Shown here one piece after another: positions 18,702 to 55,899 of a stretch of 64,000 nucleotides of DNA; position 1 is the first letter of the stretch; the number at the start of each line of letters is the position of its first letter. A program made the translations under genes and the position numbers. The notes below the pieces were generated by a model. That model did no database searches. It saw only the letters and a program-made list of their open reading frames with translations, and had not been told where the DNA came from. The DNA comes from Limanda limanda (Eukaryota; Chordata; Actinopteri; Pleuronectiformes; Pleuronectidae). Location of the stretch: NCBI RefSeq assembly GCF_963576545.1, contig NC_083658.1, positions 9,813,428 to 9,877,427 of the forward strand. The letters are read 5' to 3'.

Positions 18702-19163
18702 GTAGGTCGAAGGTTCATCCTTTGACAAAGGAAACGATTTTGTGATAACTCTACTGTGCATTGTCCTGTCACCACCAAACTTCTGTCTCATGACCAGAGT
18801 CCAAGCCTGAACAGCTCTCTTTATATTTGTCTTCACTTAATTCAAAGTTTATGAATGTAACACTTTTCTGTAAATAAGTAAATTCACCACGTGTTAAACA
18901 TCAATCAAGTCTCATACACATTCGCACATTGATCAATACATACATCAGTGTTATTATTAGGTTTCTGAGTAAATATCAGAAAATCCTTATGTCAGAAATG
19001 TCACATCTGTATCTATTCAAATGTTTATTTGTCGGGTATATCACAAGTTAGGTAAGGTTATCGACTTTTACTTTAGGAAGGATTGAACCCTGTTTTCATT
19101 TCTGATATGAAGTAATGTTATGCTGCGTTGACCTCCCCCTGCATTCACCTCTCGTGAGAAGCC

Positions 19164-20663
19164 ATGTTTCGGTCTTGGAGGAGCTTCCAGCAGTTTAACT
19201 GCAAGCTCCAGGCTTTACAAAGACTCAACGTCCGTTCCAGACGGCTCTTCTGCACCTCCAGGATGAGCTGCTCACAGTTCAGGGTGGAGCGGGACACGTT
19301 CGGTGAGCTGAAGGTCCCAGCTGACAAGTACTACGGAGCCCAGACTGTCAGATCCACCATGAACTTTAAGATCGGGGGGCCGAGTGAGAGAATGCCCCTC
19401 CAAGTGATCAAGGCCTTTGGGGTCCTGAAGAAAGCTGCTGCTGAGGTGAACAAGGACTACGGCCTCAACCCACAGGTGGCAGATGCGATCTGCCAGGCTG
19501 CAGACGAGGTGGCAGCGGGTAAGCTGGATGATCATTTCCCTCTGGTGGTGTGGCAGACTGGGTCTGGAACCCAGACCAACATGAACGTCAACGAGGTGAT
19601 CAGCAACAGGGCCATTGAGATCATGGGAGGGAAGCTGGGCTCCAAGGATCCCGTCCACCCCAACGACCACGTCAACAAGAGCCAGAGCTCCAACGACACC
19701 TTCCCCACCGCCATGCACATCGCTGCGGCCACAGAGGTCCACCATGTCCTGCTGCCCGGCCTGCAGGCTCTCCACGATGCTCTGGCTGCCAAATCCGAAG
19801 AGTTCAAAGATATCATCAAGATAGGGCGCACACACACTCAGGATGCTGTGCCGCTCTCACTGGGACAAGAGTTCAGTGGTTATGTCCAACAGGTCAAGTA
19901 CAGCATAGCGAGAGTGAAGTCCGCCATGCCCCGGGTGTATGAGCTGGCAGCAGGTGGCACAGCGGTAGGAACAGGACTAAACACCCGAATTGGCTTTGCT
20001 GAGAAAGTGGCCTCCACCGTTGCTTCTCTCACAGGCCTGCCTTTTGTGACAGCTCCCAACAAGTTTGAAGCCCTGGCGGCCAACGATGCCCTGGTGGAGC
20101 TGAGCGGAGCCCTGAACACTGTGGCTGTCAGCATGATGAAGATTGCCAACGACATCCGCTTCTTGGGTTCAGGACCCCGCTCCGGCCTCGGGGAGCTCAT
20201 CTTACCAGAGAACGAGCCGGGGAGCAGCATCATGCCGGGCAAGGTGAACCCCACCCAGTGCGAGGCCATGACCATGGTCGCAGCCCAGATTATGGGGAAT
20301 CACGTGGCGGTCACCATCGGAGGCAGCAATGGACACTTTGAGCTCAATGTCTTCAAACCCATGATCATCAAGAACGTGCTGAACTCTGCACAGCTACTGG
20401 GCAACGCATCTGTCTCCTTCACCAACAACTGCGTGGTGGGGATCCAGGCCAACACAGAGAGGATCAACAAGCTCATGAATGAGTCCCTCATGTTGGTGAC
20501 AGCACTCAACCCACACATCGGCTACGACAAAGCGGCTGCCATCGCCAAGACGGCTCACAAGAAAGGCACCACGCTGAAGGCTATGGCCATTGAGCTGGGA
20601 TACCTGACCGAGGAGCAGTTCAACCAGTGGGTGAGGCCATGTGAAATGCTGGGGCCAAAGTAA
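19164..20663 (+). CDS. fh: Fumarate hydratase, mitochondrial-type, intronless
   Basis: Class II fumarase catalyses fumarate + water to L-malate in the TCA cycle, as a homotetramer in mitochondria and also in cytosol. The 499-codon ORF spans the whole protein without interruption. Residues 1-33 form an Arg-rich, acid-poor mitochondrial presequence; Met34 ([15 protein letters not shown]) sits where the cytosolic form starts in other vertebrates. Active-site blocks are intact: [14 protein letters not shown] (133-146), [16 protein letters not shown] (165-180), [12 protein letters not shown] with catalytic-type His224 (221-232), and the superfamily signature [11 protein letters not shown] (353-363) with the catalytic-type Ser354. 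The C-terminus ends in MLGPK, as expected, and length matches the family (about 500-510 aa). Vertebrate FH genes usually have many introns, so the complete absence here indicates a retrocopy under coding constraint. Transcription is not demonstrated. A less likely alternative is that this is the only fumarase of the species. Confidence 0.96.
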
Positions 20664-24025: not shown

Positions 24026-27000
24026 GTAAAAAGATTTAGCTGGTTTTATTGACTAGTAATAAAAAAAGCAGCCAGTGTGAAGTACATTCAATGTACGTCA
24101 ACTACCTTGTGAAGGCTACATCATGTGATTAGTTTATAAATATATATTCAAATTTGAAACTAGTTATTCATATGCTGCTATCTGGTCCTGTGCATATATA
24201 CTCTTCAGTATTTACCTTCACTGTTCATTATGTATGTATCTATTTAGCTTCTGCATATATATTTATTCATAAGCTACCGTTTTTATTCATCTGCTGCCAC
24301 CCTGTCCTGTACATGTATTATTATTCACTTAAACATTTAACACTGGAGGGCTTTTAGGAGATTATCTTTTACCTGAGTTTTAATGTTTATGTCAGAAACA
24401 TAAATGGTTTCCACACTTTCTGTATATGCTCTTCAAAATAAAAACACCCCAGCGTTTCTGCTGACCAAATGCATTCTTTTGTTTAAAAAAAGGGGGGTTT
24501 ATTGTGAATTATTTGCAAGAGAGAAAAATGCACGGCTTTATACTTTATAGAACTTACTTTATTTGAGAAAGCAGGACTACTTTAATACAAGAAAATACTC
24601 ATTGTGATTGATTGAAAGCAGTTCTGAAGAGGTGAATTGGAGTTGAAAAAGGTTTTGGTAGAACATATAATAAATAATTTTTGTATTAAAAAATTCAAGT
24701 GTGTCGAAAGCTGAGCTTTATCAAGGTCACCTGCATTTTTTTGTTTCATATGAATAATTTCCTATTAGTTAATAAGTGGATCACAAGTTGGTGATGTATT
24801 TCCACTTGTCCCTCAGTTGCCCAAAATTTTTTGGGATGCCGGCGGATGAAGTTAATTTCTCAATGAACTTTGACTTTAAATAGTTTTCAGTAAAGCGGCT
24901 CTAAAGAGTCAGCTCATCCAATTATTTTCACTTCAATTGTGTGTATCAGAGAATTCTGCCCCCACACTTTTCAATGAGATCCTCTATTTAATGGGGAATA
25001 TTTCTATCCATCCATTATTAGCCAGTCCCAGAAGACATTGGGTGAGATGCGTGGGAAAACCCAGGATAAGCAGGTCACCAGCATGGAAGTATTAAAACAT
25101 GTATCTTCATTATTCTTCAGAGGAAGGTTTTGAAAAAGCTATATTTCTTTCTTCCTTTTTTGCTTGGACACAAGTTGTTTTTATTAGACACTTTTCCTCG
25201 AATTTTTGGAAATGCCTTTCAAGAAGTCCTGCATTCATCTCTTAATGTTGAACCTGCATGTGACTGGTGATGATATGTGCTTTTCCAGGACCCCCAATAT
25301 TGACCAGTTGGCACAGGAAGGCGTGAAGCTCACTCACCACATCGCCGCAGCCAACCTGTGCACGCCCAGCAGGGCAGCATTCCTCACCGGACGCTACCCG
25401 ATACGATCAGGCCAGTTCAAGGACGCTAACGCGGGGAAATCTTTACAGACTGACACGGTGCTTAATGTTCCTCTGCAGGCCAGGACCATGGGAAACACGA
25501 CTGTTTAACACTGTCACATAAAACAGATGTTTACTCCACCTCCTGCAGGAAACCCATTTATTCCACGGCTGAATTATTTAACACGGGATTGTCATGAGGT
25601 CAACCCGCCTACAAGTTAGAGAGAGAGATTGTGGCAGCCTCAAATGCAGTAGCGTGTGGGGTCGTTTCATCCAATGGTTTCAAAGAAATGAGGGAATGAC
25701 CCTGAAAGTCATCTGACAGCAGTTGTTGATGTGGGACCAAAGTATGTGAGAGCACTTCTGCAGCCAGAGCTTATGAGAGCAACGAGAACACTGCTAATTA
25801 TTAGTTCTCTGCTCCAGTCGTTAGTCTCATGCATCCGCTCTCTTTCTCTACCTGTCTCCTCATAACGCACACAACGACTTGCTTAATAAACCAGTTTGAC
25901 TGCTTATGAGTATAATTTTTCACGCAAGCTACCTGATCTCATAGCAGTGCAAGCGGAGTCAGTTTTAGAAGCGCCCAGTCTGTAGCCAGTCCCGTGTCAC
26001 AGATCCCAGGTATGATGCTCAATGGGCAAAGGTCTAGAACGAGCTGCACCCCCCCCCCCTCCACTTGACGACATTTTTTTAGAAACGATAGATTCAGCGG
26101 ACGGCAGTCAAGCTAGCTTCCAAAGACAAAAACCCACATCCTTTCCACTTACACATCATTTAATTGATCTCTATTTTTAGATTTAACAGGTCAAGCAAGC
26201 ACTGTTGGACTTGCTTGCCCTAATGGGATGCCACTGCTTAGATGTTATGTTTTGTGGATTCAAATATGTTCATTTATTTTTTCTCTTCAACAGGTATAGC
26301 TGGTTTTCAATATCCTGGGGTCTTTGTATTTAATGCAGCATCCGGAGGTCTTCCCAGCCAGGAGATGACCTTTGCAAAGATTGCAAAACAACAAGGCTAC
26401 GAGACGGCTCTAATAGGTACACTGCAGCCGTCTGTTCTTTCACATTTGCTTGAGCCGCAATGTGAGGTTCCTGGTATGACTTCTGTATTTCCTTGAATAA
26501 AAAAGGAGCTCATGTAGATGCCAGAATTTACAGTGTGAAGCCGTGCGTCTCTTGGTACTTCAAATTGTTCACGATAGACTCGCGGGACAGTGTGGGTTAA
26601 CCTAATAGCATGGGCGCCAGAAAGAAAAGCAACATGTTCCCTTATGCACACATCCAGTGTGGCCCAGGGGCAACTGTCTTTACTCCACATCAGCTACACC
26701 ATTAACACTGGTAACTGGTTTCATGTGCTGTGAAATGAGTGTATTCATCACTCTCCAGTTTTAGTGTCGTGGCAGATCAATGTCTTATGTTGTGACAGTA
26801 GTATATATAGTGATATAGCAAAATGGAAAATAATTTGAATAAATGATCAAACCAGCCACCAACAGGATTGACAGCTGGGTTTGAGTAAAAGCTGTGTTCA
26901 CCCAGACAGTAGTAATGCAGGACTAAGGCTCCAATTATCACATGAAAAAAAAACGAAAAAAGTTTAGTCCATTGTTCTTTTTTTGGTTTCTTTTTTTGTC

Positions 27001-30000
27001 TTGGTCCCAGGAAAATGGCACCTTGGACTTAACTGTGAACGCAGAGACGATCACTGCCACCACCCCAGCGTCCACGGCTTCGACTACTTCTTCGGTATCC
27101 CGCTGACCAACCTGCGGGAATGCCAGCCAGGACACGGCGCCGTGATCAACCCCATTAAATATATACCATACGAGACACTGGCCATTGTATTGGTCACCGC
27201 AGCCGTACTCCACTACTTCAGCATCCTCACCATCCCCAGATGGCTGATTTGGAGCCTGCTGTCTCTGACCCTCGTGGCCACGGCTCTGTTTAGAGGATTC
27301 ATGATGATCATCCCGTACATGAACTGTGTTCTCATGAGGGACCATAGAATTGTGGAGCAGCAATTCACGTCTGAAAACCTGACACAAGCAATGACTAACG
27401 AGGCCGTGGACTTCATTGAGAGGTACATTTCAGCTTTCCTGAATTACATTTCATAGAGAAGAAATAGAGAACATTTCTTTCCACAATAGGTTAAAGCTGC
27501 GATGAGTTTAATCTTATCTCAGTTATTGCACTCCTATGAATATTCATATGTAATGCTGATAGGTTAAACTCTATTTTCTGTTTTTGCAGCAACTCAGCGA
27601 AGCCTTTCCTGCTGTTTTTGTCTTTCATCCAAGTGCACACGGCCGTGTTTGCTTCGGCAGCGTTCAGAGGATCAAGCCAACACGGCCTCTATGGAGATGC
27701 CATCCATGAGGTGGACTGGAGTGTAGGTGTGTCAGCACCCACAACGTTATTTGCCATGAATATATAGACAGTGGCCGCTCGCCAGATTCTAATTTGTCAA
27801 GCCACAGCGGATGGGAACCTAAAACCTTTTTCACACTTCACAAGTTGGTGATATTACAAAGCTGTTGCGCCATTCGGGCTGAATTTTGTTGGCGAGAGTT
27901 GATTCGGACTGCAGCTATATTTTGTGAACCGTTTAAAAATATTTTTTTGGTCTCAAGTTTCATTTTTTCACACAAGCCTGCGTGTCTTTTGCTAAACAAG
28001 TGGTATTTGTGGGATGATGCCATGTTCCAGGATAACTGTTAACTGGGTGAAGGACGGTGGCGAAAAGCCTTGGTGGGCCTTCTCATATTTAGTTTTGTCT
28101 TTTTCCAGCTATGGGGCCTGACAGAAAATTGGGAAAGGAAAGTGAGTTTAACAACCTCTCCCTGTAAAACTACCGTCATGTTACGTCAAAATCTCCTCAC
28201 AGTTCCAGGAAGTGCAACCCCAACCCAGCGGTATTGTGGCAAAAGACAACAGACTGCATTTTTAATCATCACTTTGCAGTGGAGCAGCAACCATTTAAAT
28301 ATTTACCACTCATTGTATTCCACCAAGTATGACTACAGCAGCAAAATCCTCGAGTGTGGGGAATTGAAAAAATCCTGTACATATCTTTCCACTGTTATCA
28401 GATTTAGGCTCACTTCTAGTGCATCAGACGGTCCTTCATTAATATAGCGTTTCGTTGAAAAAGGCCATTTTCTCTCTGCTCTTATTGCTGCTCAGTCTCA
28501 AGGACGGCCTCCGTACAATACCGCCCCACAATGGACTGAATGCAGGGGGCTGCTTTGCTAATGAACGTGTAATTACCCCAATTATTTTAGCTTGAGGAGT
28601 ACTGTGTCAGCACAAAGGAGGGGGGCAATAATGGCTTAGTATTTTGCTTGCTGAATGCTACTTTCTTTTCTCCCTGCCTCTTGTGTTTGGCGAGGAGCTT
28701 TCAATTTGCACCCAGCGGCAAGAATCCTTACAAGGAATTAGTATTATGTATGTTACAATATCACTGGCCATTTACCCGAAGTTTATGGTCTGTTCTCAGG
28801 TCAGATGGTGAACACTCTGGAAAGACTCAAACTGAGAGAAAACACTCTGGTTTACTTCACTTCAGACCAGGGGGCTCATCTGGAGGAAGCCCTACATGGA
28901 TCCAATGGAATATATAAAGGTACACGAGAGAAGTGTTTCTTTTCAGACCCCTGCCAGGCCTCTCACTGCCAGGTTTTTACCGTTTATGAAAATTATGAAT
29001 TCTTTATATTGCCAGTGAGGCTATGCTCAGGAACAATTTGATGCAACCTTGAGATTCAATGTCCCTGAGCTCACAACACCTCCCTGAGTCTGAGATACAC
29101 ATTTAATGAACATGAACACTCATTTAACACATTAACAATTCATGTCCAGCTAAAAGATAATCCAGGAGGAGGCTGTGGAGGCGGCAGGAGATGAATGTGT
29201 GAAAGAAGAAGAGTAGGGGTGAGGACACAGAGCCCAGTATTCACGATGAATGAGTGCCAGAGGTGATGGACCACATATTTTGTGAGGACAAACACAATTT
29301 ATTTGTAATTGGAAGGAGTACTCAACATGTGACTATAAAATGACTTCCATGCTTTCCGAACAAATACAAGGCTCCAATATAACGCGTCATAAGATAACTC
29401 AATGCATATTTCTCCATCAGCCTCTATGCACCATAGTACAATTAAAAATCAACATTAACCCTAATTCAAATTGTATATTTACATATGACATACAGCGAAT
29501 ACAAGCATTGGAGTACAGTGTAGCAATGAAATACAAAATCTCAACCATTGTTGTAACAATAACACCATAACGCTTACTTAAATATTCCTTAGAAGAAACG
29601 TATTCATCCCATATCCCTTTATCCACCATTGCTGTGTTAGGTACAACAACACGTCTATACATGTCCTTACCAGTAATCTGAATTGTTATTGACAGATTTA
29701 AGGGATGCCGGTGTTTCTGCAACAGTTGTTGAACGGAATTTGCCCTCAGGATAAATTGTAAAAATGTCACCGTGGTTTCTGCGCGCTGTGTAAATTGTAT
29801 GTTCCTGGTCCACAAGCGGATTAATGTTCATACATCCATCCGTTCATAAGCATCATCATTACATTTAACTATAACTGTGAATTGTATTGAACACAATCCC
29901 TTTCTCCTTGCTTGACGTTATTCTCTGTAATTGCGTAGATCCCTCAAGGAAATTTTCCAGCAAGTGAAACACCTCTAAAAAACCCAAATGTTACAAAACT

Positions 30001-32714
30001 TTGTCTGTGATGAGACTGAAATCTAGATCCTGCAAACTAAGTATAATCAAAATAAGAATGTTTGTTTTATTCAGATCAGACGAGCGGTGCGTCCTAAGAG
30101 AGACAGCAACAGACTATTGTCTATGATTTAAGACAAGCTTCCCTGACAGAGGCTCACAGTGTGGACTCAGATTTGATGTAATCTTTCTGTTTGGACCCAG
30201 AAGACCGGATTCAAAGAGCAGCGAAAGCTTTTGTTATGCAGCCAAAGTCGGCAATGCTCTTTTATCTCTGCAAGTAGCCACTCTTAAGGAGCAAGTTGTT
30301 GCTTTAGTTACCAACCCAACGCTGGTTTTAGACTAGACATGCTGAGTTATGGCAGCTGGATGAGAAGTGCTTTCATGGATTTGTGTCCTTTTCCTTCTTC
30401 TGAGCAGCAGGGAAAGGCACAAACTGGGAGGGAGGGATCCGGGTCCCCGGGATTGTTAGCTGGCCAGGAAAAATCCCCGGTGGCGTAGAGATAGACGAGC
30501 CCACCAGCAACATGGACCTGTTTCCGACAGTGGTACACCTGAGTGGAGCTTCAGTCCCAGAGGACAGGTGAGGCCACGCAGCGGTGAGACAGCACTCCCT
30601 CCACACGTCAGTCAAAACTAGCGCAGCCGGAAATCTAGGTCACATTCAGAAGTGAGTGAGTCATTGGGCCCACAGTGAGTGAGATGCAGGCTCTGAGCAG
30701 AGCAAACAAGTTTACTAATGAACAGGGGGTATTAAGGATAACTCGGAGGCTTTGATCTGAGGGTTTCGACAGCCACGGTGAGTCACAATAATAATAGTAC
30801 GTGATGTATCAATAATACGTGATGTATCAATTCCAGGGGGTTCTGCACGTGTTGCCTGTTTTATTTTAGCATGCTGCTTGGCTAATCCAGGGAACAACCA
30901 AAGAATGGAGCCATCCACTCCAAGCATAACTGAAATTCCATTTGTGCAGTAAATGGTTTAATGGTTAAATGGAACTTAACTGCAACACACAACATTGGTC
31001 CGGAAGCAAACAACCCTACAAACCTGCTGATATCAAATGCAGAAAGTCCCAAAAGTAGAGTAAAGTTGATGAATCAATCATCTCTTGAGAGGCAAATGGG
31101 TCAGGATAACTATACCCTGAGGGTCAGATGCCCGTTTTACATTTGTTACAGTTTGGCCATTATTTGGAGGAAAACGACAAAGGATCAATAAATGGATACC
31201 ATGCATAGTTGGTATCCTGACAACACCCATTCACATGCTGAGCAGCTGAATGTGTTTGTGTCCTCGGCTCTGCAGGGAGATCGATGGTCATGACCTCATG
31301 GATTTGCTCCAGGGGAGAGTTGAAAGGTCCAACCACGAGTTTCTGTTCCATTACTGCAACGCCTACTTTAATGCAGTCCGATGGCACCCCCGAAACAGTA
31401 AGTCCAAACAATGACCCTGATTGATGAGTTATCCACAACATACATGTAAATAATCTGTATAAATATCTGGTCCAGGTCATCTGGAAATCAAGAAGATAAG
31501 ATGAGATGTTACACCCACAGATATTCAGAATGAGGTAGACAAGAGAGTAAAAAAGGCAATAGAATAAAAATAAGAAAATTAAATAAAAACACAGATAATA
31601 TGTAAGAAATATTGTATGTAGATAAATGTGCATGAGTAAAGTGCAATGGTACAAGATGATTGAATGAGGGTGTAAACTGCATTTGTGCGTTAAGTATGAG
31701 ATATTAAAATGGACATTACCGAAGATATGCTGTTATAGTATGGCAGGTGTGATATAAAAATAAACATTCCATGTGATGTGTGTATGTGCGTATACCATAG
31801 TATACTAGTATAGCAGTATATTATATAGTATAACTATTTTAAGATGTGTACATATATACATTTTATTATTAATATATAAAGTACAATACAATTTGAATAA
31901 AACATGGTATGCAAGTATTTATAAATCAATCAAATCAAAATAGAGAAAGTAGAGGTAAGAAGTTGTGTTTTATTATATTATCACTACTTCTATTACTCTT
32001 ATTCTTACAAATGTTAGTAATATTATCAGTAATATACAAATACAAATATCATGCATTATTTATCTATATTTATGTATATACCCTACTACTTTTTACTGTG
32101 TTTGAAAGCTCAATAAACATTAATAGTCTTCAATCAGCCATATACTTTGCACAAGGAAAATAGACTTAAAAAGTAAACTTGAAATCAATATCTTTTATAT
32201 GCTTCAAACAACCTCTGGGGATAATGGGGGTTGCAATTCGGTTATTTTGGGGGTCGGCGGCTGAAAAGTTGAGAAACCCCTGATCTACGTGAGAGACTGT
32301 AGGAAAACACATAGGCTGCCTCAAGGCAATAAGTCACATTGAGTTGTTCCATTTCTAATTTCTGCAGGTAGCTCAGTGTGGAAAGCCTTTTACTTCACAC
32401 CGAACTTCGACTCAGAGAACGCGACGACATGTGTCAACACACAAATCTGCTTTTGCACGCCGGGCTGCGTGACCTATCACGATCCTCCGCTCCTCTTTGA
32501 CCTCTCGAAGGACCCGTCGGAGACCACGCCGCTGACGCCTGACTCCGAACCGGCCTTCGAGTCCATCGTGTCTGTGATGGCGGAGGCCGTGGAGAGGCAT
32601 CGGAGATCGGTGAAGCCCGTGGAGAACCAATTATCTGTAGGGAATTTGATGTGGAAGCCCTGGCTGCTGCCCTGCTGCTCCACACTTGGACAGTTATGTC
32701 AGTGCCAGAATTAG
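23859..32714 (+). CDS. sts: Steroid sulfatase-type arylsulfatase, complete, nine coding exons
   Basis: Steryl-sulfatase hydrolyses 3-beta-hydroxysteroid sulfates such as DHEA sulfate and estrone sulfate at the luminal face of the ER. Coding exons: 23859-24025, 25289-25410, 26294-26416, 27011-27422, 27590-27726, 28800-28919, 30411-30567, 31276-31397, 32368-32714; all phases join to give 568 aa (human STS is 583). Visible: Leu-rich signal peptide (1-24); metal-binding D40-D41; formylglycine motif C80-T-P-S-R; K139/H141 in KWHLG; two-helix membrane hairpin (about 190-238) specific to the STS branch; H291; D343-Q344 in SDQGAH; K362; glycosylation sites N52 and N260 as in STS; C-terminal WKPWL followed by a Cys cluster. 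Intron 2 has a GC rather than GT donor. Closely related paralogues (ARSD, ARSL, ARSF, ARSH) share this architecture; the convergent pnpla4 neighbour favours STS. The preceding acceptor at 23840 implies a separate 5' UTR exon. Confidence 0.93.
24995..25085 (-). repeat. LINE/SINE 3'-end remnant in sts intron 1
   Basis: Starts at CTATCCATCCATTATTAGCC and runs through ACATTGGGTGAGATGCGTGG and CAGGTCACCAGCATGG. This is the reverse complement of a common fish retroelement 3' end that finishes in ATGGATGG repeats. A related 3' end in the other orientation is at 35720-35800. Confidence 0.5.
25289..25410 (+). CDS. sts: sts coding exon 2: formylglycine (CTPSR) exon, GC donor
   Basis: Acceptor TTTTCCAG ends at 25288. 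The exon encodes [14 protein letters not shown] and the sulfatase signature [18 protein letters not shown]. Family alignment and reading frame put its end at TCAG, followed by GCCAGT, a GC donor; no GT is available at this point. The frame reads on past this point to a stop at 25508, which would truncate the enzyme if unspliced. Confidence 0.9.
26294..26416 (+). CDS. sts: sts coding exon 3
   Basis: Acceptor CTTCAACAG ends at 26293 and donor AATAG|GTACAC follows. It encodes [19 protein letters not shown] and continues to the ETALIG block, colinear with the sulfatase core strand after the active-site helix. Confidence 0.9.
27011..27422 (+). CDS. sts: sts coding exon 4: KWHLG motif and membrane hairpin
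   Basis: Acceptor TTGGTCCCAG ends at 27010; donor GAGAG|GTACAT. It begins in KWHLG (catalytic-type Lys and His), then [17 protein letters not shown], then two hydrophobic helices separated by a short turn (TIPRWL), the ER-membrane hairpin of steroid sulfatase. It includes the ENLT glycosylation site. Confidence 0.93.
27590..27726 (+). CDS. sts: sts coding exon 5
   Basis: Acceptor TTTTTGCAG ends at 27589; donor TGTAG|GTGTGT. Encodes the [16 protein letters not shown] block with the active-site His291 and then [18 protein letters not shown], matching the sulfatase core. Confidence 0.92.
28800..28919 (+). CDS. sts: sts coding exon 6: second metal site
   Basis: Acceptor TGTTCTCAG ends at 28799; donor TAAAG|GTACAC. 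Encodes [13 protein letters not shown] with metal-binding D343 and Q344, then GSNGIYK. The loop between the two blocks is about five residues shorter than in human STS. Confidence 0.92.
30411..30567 (+). CDS. sts: sts coding exon 7: substrate-loop lysine
   Basis: Encodes [20 protein letters not shown] and [19 protein letters not shown]362 corresponds to the active-site lysine after the GIYK block. The acceptor is a tandem run GAGCAGCAG, so the start could be 30405, 30408 or 30411 without changing frame. The donor is GGACAG|GTGAGG. Confidence 0.9.
31276..31397 (+). CDS. sts: sts coding exon 8
   Basis: Acceptor GGCTCTGCAG ends at 31275; donor GAAACA|GTAAGT is full consensus. Encodes [13 protein letters not shown] and [19 protein letters not shown], a stretch highly conserved in the STS/ARSD/ARSL group. 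Confidence 0.93.
31480..32170. other. AT-rich intronic DNA in sts intron 8
   Basis: Very AT-rich, with low-complexity ATATA stretches and no coding potential. It may derive from an old mobile element but has no clear boundaries. Confidence 0.4.
32215..32284. repeat. Possible hAT-type terminal fragment in sts intron 8
   Basis: GGGGGTCGGCGGCTGAAAAG followed by TTGAGAAACCCCTG resembles the GGGTCG...GTTGAGAACCACTG ends of common hAT elements. Only one end is recognisable. Confidence 0.3.
32368..32714 (+). CDS. sts: sts coding exon 9: C-terminal domain
   Basis: Acceptor AATTTCTGCAG ends at 32367. Encodes [33 protein letters not shown] and the Cys-rich end ([16 protein letters not shown]) typical of this sulfatase branch; TAG stop at 32712-32714. 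This exon is markedly GC-rich relative to its flanks. An AATAAA at 33265-33270 is a possible poly(A) signal. Confidence 0.94.
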
Positions 32715-37124: not shown

Positions 37125-37290
<166 letters not shown>

Positions 37291-52359: not shown

Positions 52360-54386
52360 TTCTATAATACCGTCAGGTTAGAAGCAAACACTGGATAGTA
52401 GTTGTTAGTGCCGGGAGTCCCTGCTGACTGTGTGTGGAAGCTGGGGGAGAGCTAGCTCCGGGTAGCTTCTAGCTACATGTAGCCTCAAGCAGATTCAAGC
52501 TTCCGACGGACTGTGTCGGAGAAGTAAAAATCAAAAAGACTCTTTGTCTCCTGCTGAGACCTCTCCAAGAAACGGACACGTAGTAGTATATAAGAGCCTT
52601 CAGGCTCACGTCCCCCATGTTTAATGCACGAGTGAAAGCACAGGGACATGATGTTGTTTGCACCATGGTTGCTGTGGTTTGCTGTGCTGCAACTGAGGTA
52701 GCACCATTCACTCTCCTTAGTTAGTCTGCCTCTCCACAAGTGGCCTAAACTCACTTTTCACCTTTTTTAGGGATAGTAGTTTTAATGGTTGGTGTATGGT
52801 GGAACATTTGAATCCTCCTCTTAGATGTTTTAATGCTTCTTTTTCTCCCCCAGCAGTTCCAGCCGCTGTGATTTTTATTGTTTTGAATTATTTCAATAAA
52901 ACATGTGTTTTTCCTGAGAAAAAACACGTCTCTTTCTCTTCTAAGTACAAGCTTGTTTAATTTATTGGTGTCCAGAGAAGGACCTTGAAACAGTAGATCA
53001 GTAGGTTTGTTGTTCAAATCTCATTCATCTGTTTATTGCCCCCACCACACAACCCAAAAACTGCAAACTATTTTTATTATTAATTGACTTTTAATAAGAT
53101 CAACTGTCTCAACACGGCACCTCAGCTCACACAGACGTTCAGACATGGAGACACGCTTGAAGACGTTTTAACTGTGTGAGACTTTGAACTGAGCTGGGGG
53201 GGGGGACAAAAGCACCTGGGTGATAAGATTATCTTCCCAATCGTCAGTCTGTGGTCGCTGCTGCAAACAGACAGGAGTCACAGAACTCCGAAGGTCAAAG
53301 CCTGCTATAAATTTTATATTTGACTGGATTTTAATTGACTTTGCTGACTGGTTTTTATGGTTTTTATATAAATCTTCACTTCAGTACTTTTACTATCTAG
53401 ATTTGGAGCGTAAACAATTTTTTTTCCTCCTTAGAAATCCAGAGATGTAATGACATTTCCTTATCAAGAACAAATATCTGACTCAACAAAATGCAGTTGC
53501 AGATGTATGAAACTGGAAATTGGAAAAGTGAAGTCGACATACCTTGAATTTTGATTTTGAAAAGTATAGTTCGTAATATCAACTGCAAATTTATAGATGT
53601 CCTTATCTTACAATGCGCTCTGACTTTCTTTCTGAACTTTCCTAGAAAGTGTCAGAAAGAAAGTAAAAAGTTTAAGAACTTGTAATTTATTCTTGCATTG
53701 ATGTCTGATAATTCACCCAAAGGATATGAGAAATTTGAGCATTTCATTACTTTAAAATTAACCCTTTATAGATATAAAGGGTTAATTTTAATTTTAGGGT
53801 TAAACATAAGCTGGGTGTAGATCTGAGAGTGGGCAGTTTAGACATGTCCCAACAAGGTGTTGTTCAATTGTCCCGATCAATATATTATCCCATTTAAATT
53901 AATCTAGATGATTTATATGGGGCCAATAGTGTCGCTATATAATTTGTGTGTGTGTGAAGTTGTGTATCTCTGCCTCAATCTGTGTATGCCTAACAGATTT
54001 GTAAATGTGTTAATATAATCTGTTATGAGAAAATGCCCACCAGAGTGAATTAAGAAATCAGGACCTTTTTAAAGCACTGCACTGTAAGTAACCGCTGAGC
54101 TCAGCTAATGAGAATCTTCTCCAATCAATCCAAACATACATCCTCTTTGAAATTAGTGAGAAAATATTTCGTATTTAATGCCTCCCTCCCTGTTTCCATG
54201 AGCGAGTTCTCTCGGCATGTGGGTCATTAAACAGCCCTGTATCATTTACACATGAGCATTACTTCACGAAGTAAATTAGCCGAAGCACGTCCAACCGATA
54301 ATGTGAGGCACCATTTTATTCTGTAAAATCCTGCCAGCAGCAGTCTGCAACCCACACTTCAGGAGCTGAATGAAAAATAATACAGA
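52360..54386. other. Intergenic DNA, no gene recognised
   Basis: AT-rich; includes a perfect inverted repeat at 53754-53789, listed separately. ORFs at 52469-53017 have no motif. Confidence 0.45.
53754..53789. repeat. Perfect 17-bp inverted repeat, 2-nt loop
   Basis: Left arm AAAATTAACCCTTTATA and right arm TATAAAGGGTTAATTTT are exact reverse complements separated by GA. A partial third copy (AATTTTAGGGTTAA) follows directly. Confidence 0.9.
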
Positions 54387-55557
54387 CAGTGTTGGGGAGT
54401 AACGGAATACATGTAACGGCGTTACGTATTTAGAATACAAATTATGAGTAACTGTATTCCGTTACAGTTACAAATTAAATAGATGGTATTCAGAATACAG
54501 TTACATTGTTGAAATCAGTGGATTACATGACGGTACTTCTCTGTTTCACGAGTTTAATCACTGTCTCGTAAATCCACCGGAGGCAAAGCCCCCAGGAAGC
54601 AGCTGGAGACCAGGGCTGCCGTAAGAGCGCCCGGACCCCGGCGGCGTGAAGAAGCCTCACCGCTACCCGCTCGGGACCGTTACAGGCCCCGGGACCTTGG
54701 CTCTGAGAGAGTTCCGTCGCTACCAGAAATCTACGGAGCTGCTGATCCGCAAGCTGCCCTTCCAGCGCCTGGTGAGAGAAGACCGACCTGCGCTCCCAGA
54801 GCTCCGCTGTCATGGCTCTGCAGGAGACCAGCGAGGCACGCAGGGTTCACACCGGACGCTGAAGCGACGCTAAAATAATATCACCCGTTGACCCAGTAGT
54901 ATAAAAGCATATGGTCACTTGTTGCTCCAACATTAACTGCAACAGCGTCCCAATTTAATGTCATCCATCTTCAAGAACTTCTCCGCTGTTTGCTCCGTTC
55001 AATGTCGGGTGTCGAGGGTAAATTACGTATTCTCCGCCCCCCCCCCCCCCCCTCTCTTTATTTAAAACTCCAGGACAACAGAAGGGGAATACAAACTATG
55101 GGATGCATACTTTATCATTTATATCATATAAAATATGTCATCAATATCGTTTAAAATCCTTTTTCAGTGTGTTTCCTGGAGCGATATGCTCGCGTCAAGC
55201 GCAAAAAATAGACCCGACGCCGAAACGATCGCTGCACGGCGCGAGGCAGCCTTGGCGCAGGGGGGGGATTCAGCCTCCGGTGAGACCCGCACAGAGGTGG
55301 GAGTGGATGGGAGCCGGACATCCAGCGGGCCCGCAGCATCGGTGGAGAGAGAGTTTAAACTGCTGCTGCTCCACTGACTATAACAACGCCGCAATCATAC
55401 ACTTAAAAAATGCAATACAAACCGGAAGTATTCCAAGTATTCAGAATACGTTACTCAGATTAGTTAATGTAATGGAATACGTTACAGATTACATTTTTGT
55501 GCATGTATTCTGTATTCTGTAACGGAATACGTTTTGAAAGTATCCTTCCCAACACTG
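54387..55557. mobile_element. hAT-type element with intact TSD, carrying histone H3 sequence
   Basis: Left terminus CAGTGTTGGGGAG (54387) and right terminus CTTCCCAACACTG (ending 55557) are inverted repeats with the CAG...CTG ends typical of hAT. Identical 8-bp flanks AATACAGA occur at 54379-54386 and 55558-55565, a textbook hAT target-site duplication. Subterminal regions hold many GGAATACGTTAC-like repeats on both sides, likely transposase-binding sites. No transposase is present in the 1171 bp. The interior contains a broken histone H3 fragment (54566-54839), a C16 run (55037-55052) and a CpG-rich stretch (55180-55370) of unknown origin. Confidence 0.92.
54566..54839 (+). pseudogene. Histone H3 fragment inside the hAT element
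   Basis: Translating across frames recovers H3 in order: RKSTGGKAPRKQL near 54567-54605, KKPHRY at about 54648, then after a small duplicated GPGT insertion [20 protein letters not shown] and PFQRLVRE (about 54700-54780), and, after loss of about six residues (IAQDFK), [19 protein letters not shown] (to 54839). It thus covers about H3 residues 8-98 with at least two frameshifts and neither end of the gene. It cannot encode a histone. Its DNA similarity to H3 is high, suggesting a fairly recent capture. Confidence 0.9.
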
Positions 55558-55734
55558 AATACAGATACATACATTTGTTCATTTAATCTAAAGAACAGAT
55601 CATGGCTGTGTTATACAGAGTGCAACTTGACACATTTTAAGAAAACGTCCAACTACACAAAAAAAGGTGGCAATAGAGAACCTTTTAATCAATTTGATAG
55701 GACGTGCGTGGGAAATGGGAAGATACTATGCAAA

Positions 55735-55890
55735 TACTCATAATACTACAATTACTCACAACACAATCAAATACTTGCATCACAACCCAATACTCACGGT
55801 ACAACGAAAATACTCACATCACAACCCAATACTCACAACACAACAAATTACTCGCATCACAACCCAATACTCACAGTACAACAAAATACT
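55735..55890. repeat. Minisatellite, about 38-bp unit
   Basis: About four units built from two related halves of about 19 bp, AATACTCACATCACAACCC and AATACTCACAACACAACAA-like, with point differences. Lies 180 bp beyond the hAT element. Confidence 0.8.
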
Positions 55891-55899
55891 GACATGTTT

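Follow-up and report, generated by a model that had tools for sequence, protein, structure and literature searches.

A hAT-like element carrying a damaged histone H3 fragment in Limanda limanda

The question raised by this locus in the flatfish Limanda limanda is how a piece of a histone H3 gene came to lie inside a short transposon, and whether it has travelled with that transposon since. The window, by which we mean the whole 64,000-nucleotide stretch that was analysed (64 kb), had been annotated from its letters alone as holding a hAT-type transposon that captured the H3 piece. We delimited the element, characterised the fragment and its damage, compared it with a related protein of European plaice (Pleuronectes platessa), and weighed the possible origins.

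Boundaries and identity of the element

The element and its parts, including the terminal inverted repeats (TIRs) and the target-site duplications (TSDs), are as follows.

54379..54386, + strand: left TSD, AATACAGA
54387-55557: hAT-like element, 1,171 bp, bounded by TIR and TSD
54387..54396, + strand: left TIR, CAGTGTTGGG
54387..54551: left subterminal stretch with 12 GTTAC/GAATAC motifs across the two strands
54839..55407: remaining body of the element, which includes a C16 run (55037-55052)
55408..55557: right subterminal stretch with 10 GTTAC/GAATAC motifs across the two strands
55548..55557, - strand: right TIR, CCCAACACTG as read in the window
55558..55565, + strand: right TSD, AATACAGA

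The precise boundaries claimed by the initial annotation were exact to the base. The TIRs are identical at 10/10 positions (12/13 when extended) and the two TSD copies agree at 8/8. An exact 8-bp repeat at the TSD place is expected by chance at about 1.5e-5, and the pair CAGTGTTGGG...CCCAACACTG within 3 kb was absent from 20 shuffled windows. When the TIR was searched for more loosely, as the 17-base pattern CAGTGTTGGGNAGTAAC allowing 3 mismatches or fewer, the window gave 2 matches and 16 of 100 shuffles gave 2 or more; this pattern is not significant alone. Chance as the source of the TIR and TSD was rejected on the shuffle controls and the exact 8/8 TSD. The outer 165 bp and 150 bp (315 bp together) hold 22 GTTAC/GAATAC motifs, whereas 1,000 dinucleotide shuffles have 1.7 on average and never more than 6.

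hAT TIRs begin CAGNG, and some hATs prefer the TSD nTnnnnAn. The element has an 8-bp TSD, a short TIR of the CAGNG type and subterminal repeated motifs, all of which are hAT characters; its TSD AATACAGA does not match the nTnnnnAn preference, which counts against the explanation that we favour. Measured from stop to stop, ORFs that overlap the element reach 166 codons at most. Pfam found no transposase domain in the 5 ORFs that were scanned of the 21 with at least 35 codons, and no family at all in the 4 scanned besides the one that matches histone. We take the element to be non-autonomous and hAT-like. No second copy was found within the 64-kb window at E 1e-3, and scans of viral_contigs and genome_contigs by pattern gave 0 matches, in collections where fish DNA is hardly expected.

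The window around the element was also surveyed. Rfam gave 0 matches in the 64 kb at gathering scores. Some 170 bp beyond the element's right end lies a degenerate tandem array (55731-55895) with periods of 19, 38 and 77 bp and a unit like CAAATACTCACATCACAAC. A perfect (GT)n run of 81.5 units occupies 37127-37289. Exon-like pieces of an arylsulfatase-type gene were found on the + strand at 25188-32714, with Pfam Sulfatase at 25188-25505 and 28742-29038 and Sulfatase_C at 32343-32711; the piece at 26968-27453 in the same region had no Pfam match.

The histone H3 fragment and its damage

The H3 fragment and the features within it are listed below; P0001 is the predicted plaice protein described in the next section.

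54567..54838, + strand: histone H3 fragment, codons R8 to A98, from a frameshift-aware alignment
54618..54619, + strand: 1-bp deletion in codon A25, common to P0001
54625..54873, + strand: longest stretch open in the H3 frame, 82 codons without an ATG
54629..54630, + strand: 1-bp deletion in codon A29, absent from P0001
54667..54687, + strand: net +18 bp insertion at R42, absent from P0001
54778..54788, + strand: junction of a 17-bp frameshifting deletion, codons 74-79, common to P0001

The proposal of an internal H3 fragment from about codon 8 to 98 in a hAT-like element was borne out: the alignment runs from R8 at 54567 to A98 at 54836-54838, and the Pfam Histone match scored 34.9 bits (cut-off 26.4). 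The best tblastn frame gave E = 2e-19 against an H3 protein sequence, and H3 matches in the window outside the fragment were all at E 2.6 or worse. Among sequences of solved structures 167 matched, with H3.Y best at 66.5 bits and H3.2 next at 66.2 bits, a gap too small for interpretation. A host gene fragment thus sits between the TIRs, as in elements called Pack-TYPE or Pack-TIR.

We read S87, V89, M90 and S96 at the positions that separate H3 types, a set which we take to be diagnostic for replication-dependent H3. These residues point to a replication-dependent type for the fragment, and H3.3 was rejected as the source on residues 87, 89 and 90, which are S, V and M. We assume that every fish has an intact H3 gene. 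Genes of the replication-dependent type have no introns, so capture may have gone by way of either DNA or RNA.

The same lack of introns would allow an independent H3 retrocopy or fragment to have entered the window element after its transposition, a nested insertion that we consider very improbable. The piece is truncated at both ends, and neither a flanking duplication nor poly(A) was seen by eye. The H3 codons M to A7 fit the upstream DNA poorly, at no more than 13/24 positions over the 7 offsets tried (a figure with no null distribution behind it), so the left edge of the homology lies near R8. The same damaged piece also exists in plaice, which argues further against a nested insertion.

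The initial annotation had described the fragment as rearranged by frameshifts, a small insertion and a six-residue deletion. The rearrangement was found, and it includes two 1-bp deletions, one in codon 25 and one in codon 29; the insertion is real and amounts to a net 18 bp, while the supposed six-residue deletion is a loss of 17 bp that shifts the frame. The insertion may perhaps be a decayed tandem duplication, the weak signal for which was matched in 78 of 2,000 shuffles. Replacements in the fragment include A31D, T32P, V46L, I51F and A95T. A functional H3 variant was rejected on the broken frames and an H3-frame ORF without ATG; a protein product from the H3 piece is unlikely because of that missing ATG. 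The element cannot make an H3 protein, and inert cargo is the best explanation of the piece.

A damaged relative in plaice and the origin of the fragment

The top match to the H3-frame ORF, among the best 120 of 7,641 matches, was P0001, a predicted European plaice protein of 91 aa (E 2.9e-24, 56/69 identical). It is unnamed in NCBI and entered in UniRef as a core-histone-domain protein. Five features are common to the window and P0001: the codon-25 deletion, T32P, I51F, the 17-bp deletion and the point at which H3 homology stops. P0001 enters the H3 frame at codon 25 as the window fragment does, has neither the deletion in codon 29 nor the insertion of 18 bp, and shows the private changes G33V, H39D and A91T. 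A21E and K23R were not counted as common changes, as the reading frame of P0001 leaves these residues undetermined. Among 202 proteins compared, the junction of the 17-bp deletion (VREDRPAL) occurred only in P0001, while I51F alone was also present in one other protein, P0040. With P0001 as query, no further relative with such damage appeared among the best 120 of 7,946 matches.

The edges of the two pieces were compared. The first residues of P0001 do not contain H3 codons 8-15, so no common left edge is seen. On the right, P0001 ends at the codon where the window homology ends; 7 other proteins with the same frame pattern (of 322) continue for at least 6 residues past that codon. The end of P0001 may be a gene-model or exon end that mimics a common right edge. 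The leader of P0001 matches the element DNA just before H3 at 21/30 nt. As high a score came up at 127 of the 127,940 positions in the window, with values of up to 24/30, and 7 out of 2,000 shuffles of the leader did as well there. The leader match is suggestive only, because its register came from an earlier alignment.

Judged on these sequences, the H3 piece was very probably damaged already before the window copy and the P0001 copy split, and is very probably not a one-off insertion in the window element. The initial annotation had proposed looking for other copies with the H3 segment; the same damaged fragment does occur beyond the window locus, at the protein level, in the five common features of P0001.

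We consider it probable, by a modest degree, that a non-autonomous hAT-like element captured the H3 piece, that the damaged version predates the separation of the window and P0001 copies, and that the element moved in trans. An internal piece of about 275 bp from a replication-dependent H3 gene would have been acquired by the element, probably through gap filling or template switching where the element had broken internally. The 1-bp and 17-bp deletions and two or more replacements in the piece would have followed, all before the two copies parted. A hAT transposase supplied from elsewhere would bind the termini and the subterminal repeats and move the element, and P0001 would lie inside another copy of it.

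The common damage would also arise if the H3 piece had filled a break in an already inserted element that never moved again; P0001 would then be that insertion as plaice inherited it, altered privately after the two species parted. This single-copy history is unlikely in our estimate, and several observations agree with it. Single-copy Pack-TIRs prevail in animals and are mostly credited to gap filling, multicopy ones being credited to fork switching and transposition (PMC8277862). By our estimate, neutral divergence between genera would fit the six replacements and two indels that separate the copies. The fumarate hydratase (FH) encoded in the window shares 96% identity with its counterpart in Hippoglossus stenolepis (Pacific halibut), a member of the plaice family; going by this protein, the host is probably a percomorph close to the halibuts. 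This FH frame (19158-20663, + strand) is intronless and full-length at 501 aa, and its other full-length matches reached at most 91% (best 120 of 7,994); it is an intact retrogene or an intronless main copy, with no obvious poly(A) tract seen by eye in the 457 bp downstream.

The damage common to both copies would need no mobilisation if P0001 were the donor, that is, an H3 pseudogene that already had the deletions when the element captured it and that still lies elsewhere without transposon ends. The private changes of P0001 and its lack of H3 codons 8-15 agree with this. However, a donor would be expected to contain H3 beyond codon 98, where P0001 stops, and the P0001 leader does not resemble H3 but has a weak match to the element. 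We regard a donor role for P0001 as quite improbable. Extending capture followed by movement in trans to a multicopy Pack-hAT family with replication-dependent H3, spread in flatfishes, is a tentative and rather doubtful step.

Known Pack-TIRs and histone H3 in other hATs

Vertebrate Pack-hATs have been published before, and so have hATs with H3 as cargo. A survey of 100 animal genomes, 81 of them vertebrate, reported 370 Pack-TIRs, with 208 being hAT and 8 coming from zebrafish (PMC8277862). The initial annotation held such capture to be seldom described in vertebrates, which agrees with the multicopy cases, four in number (three in frog and one in alligator, beside one family in fly populations), but not with the survey as a whole (PMC8277862). 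One animal case in the same source draws on an intronic stretch of the histone gene H2BC15. Captured coding pieces are also carried by Turmoil-1 of C. elegans (PMC2572040).

Pack-hAT-N8_XT of the western clawed frog likewise is a hAT enclosing a host gene fragment; it has three copies with distinct TSDs and a 291 bp cargo of CAPSL 5' UTR (PMC8277862), whereas the window element is known from one DNA copy and carries H3 coding sequence. Maize Ds elements are non-autonomous hATs whose TIRs are short and which have some subterminal repeats, but they are a plant family, and the start of the abstract does not mention H3 cargo (PMC3260210).

The element also resembles cases in fungi, where hATs carry H3 coding sequence in Pyrenophora tritici-repentis (PMC3538342) and in Pseudocercospora fijiensis and relatives within the Mycosphaerellaceae (PMC6710886), the latter source calling the Pyrenophora event independent. 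The P. fijiensis H3 is mostly truncated, and an 8-bp TSD is stated for P. fijiensis and Cercospora zeae-maydis (PMC6710886), as in the window element. The fungal elements measure about 2.3-9.9 kb, many with a hAT domain, and their H3 copies number 26 in Pyrenophora and 784 in P. fijiensis (PMC3538342, PMC6710886). In contrast, the window element is 1.17 kb, had no transposase domain found and carries vertebrate H3. Literature searches judged by titles and abstract starts found no vertebrate hAT with H3 among the papers listed, and of 20 of the 54 papers that contain the TIR string none was on a fish hAT by title.

The initial annotation also warned that such a family could confuse histone annotation. 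The damaged relative P0001 is indeed named as a core-histone protein, while its siting in a transposon is something we infer; fish annotation may contain false histone entries that stem from damaged H3 in transposons. Animal reference genomes hold few multicopy Pack-TIRs (PMC8277862), and a multicopy fish case, if true, would offer a system that can be dated for studying how hATs take up host exons and spread them. A flatfish family, if true, would be a third independent hAT-H3 capture beside the two fungal lineages. That H3 was chosen repeatedly is the point of most interest, but so small a number of cases, reached by different routes, is no test of bias. H3 as hAT cargo both in fungi and in a fish makes a capture bias testable, and H3 capture by hATs, if the family is real, may be nonrandom, for example if clustered H3 genes expressed in S phase were favoured templates for fork switching at hAT ends.
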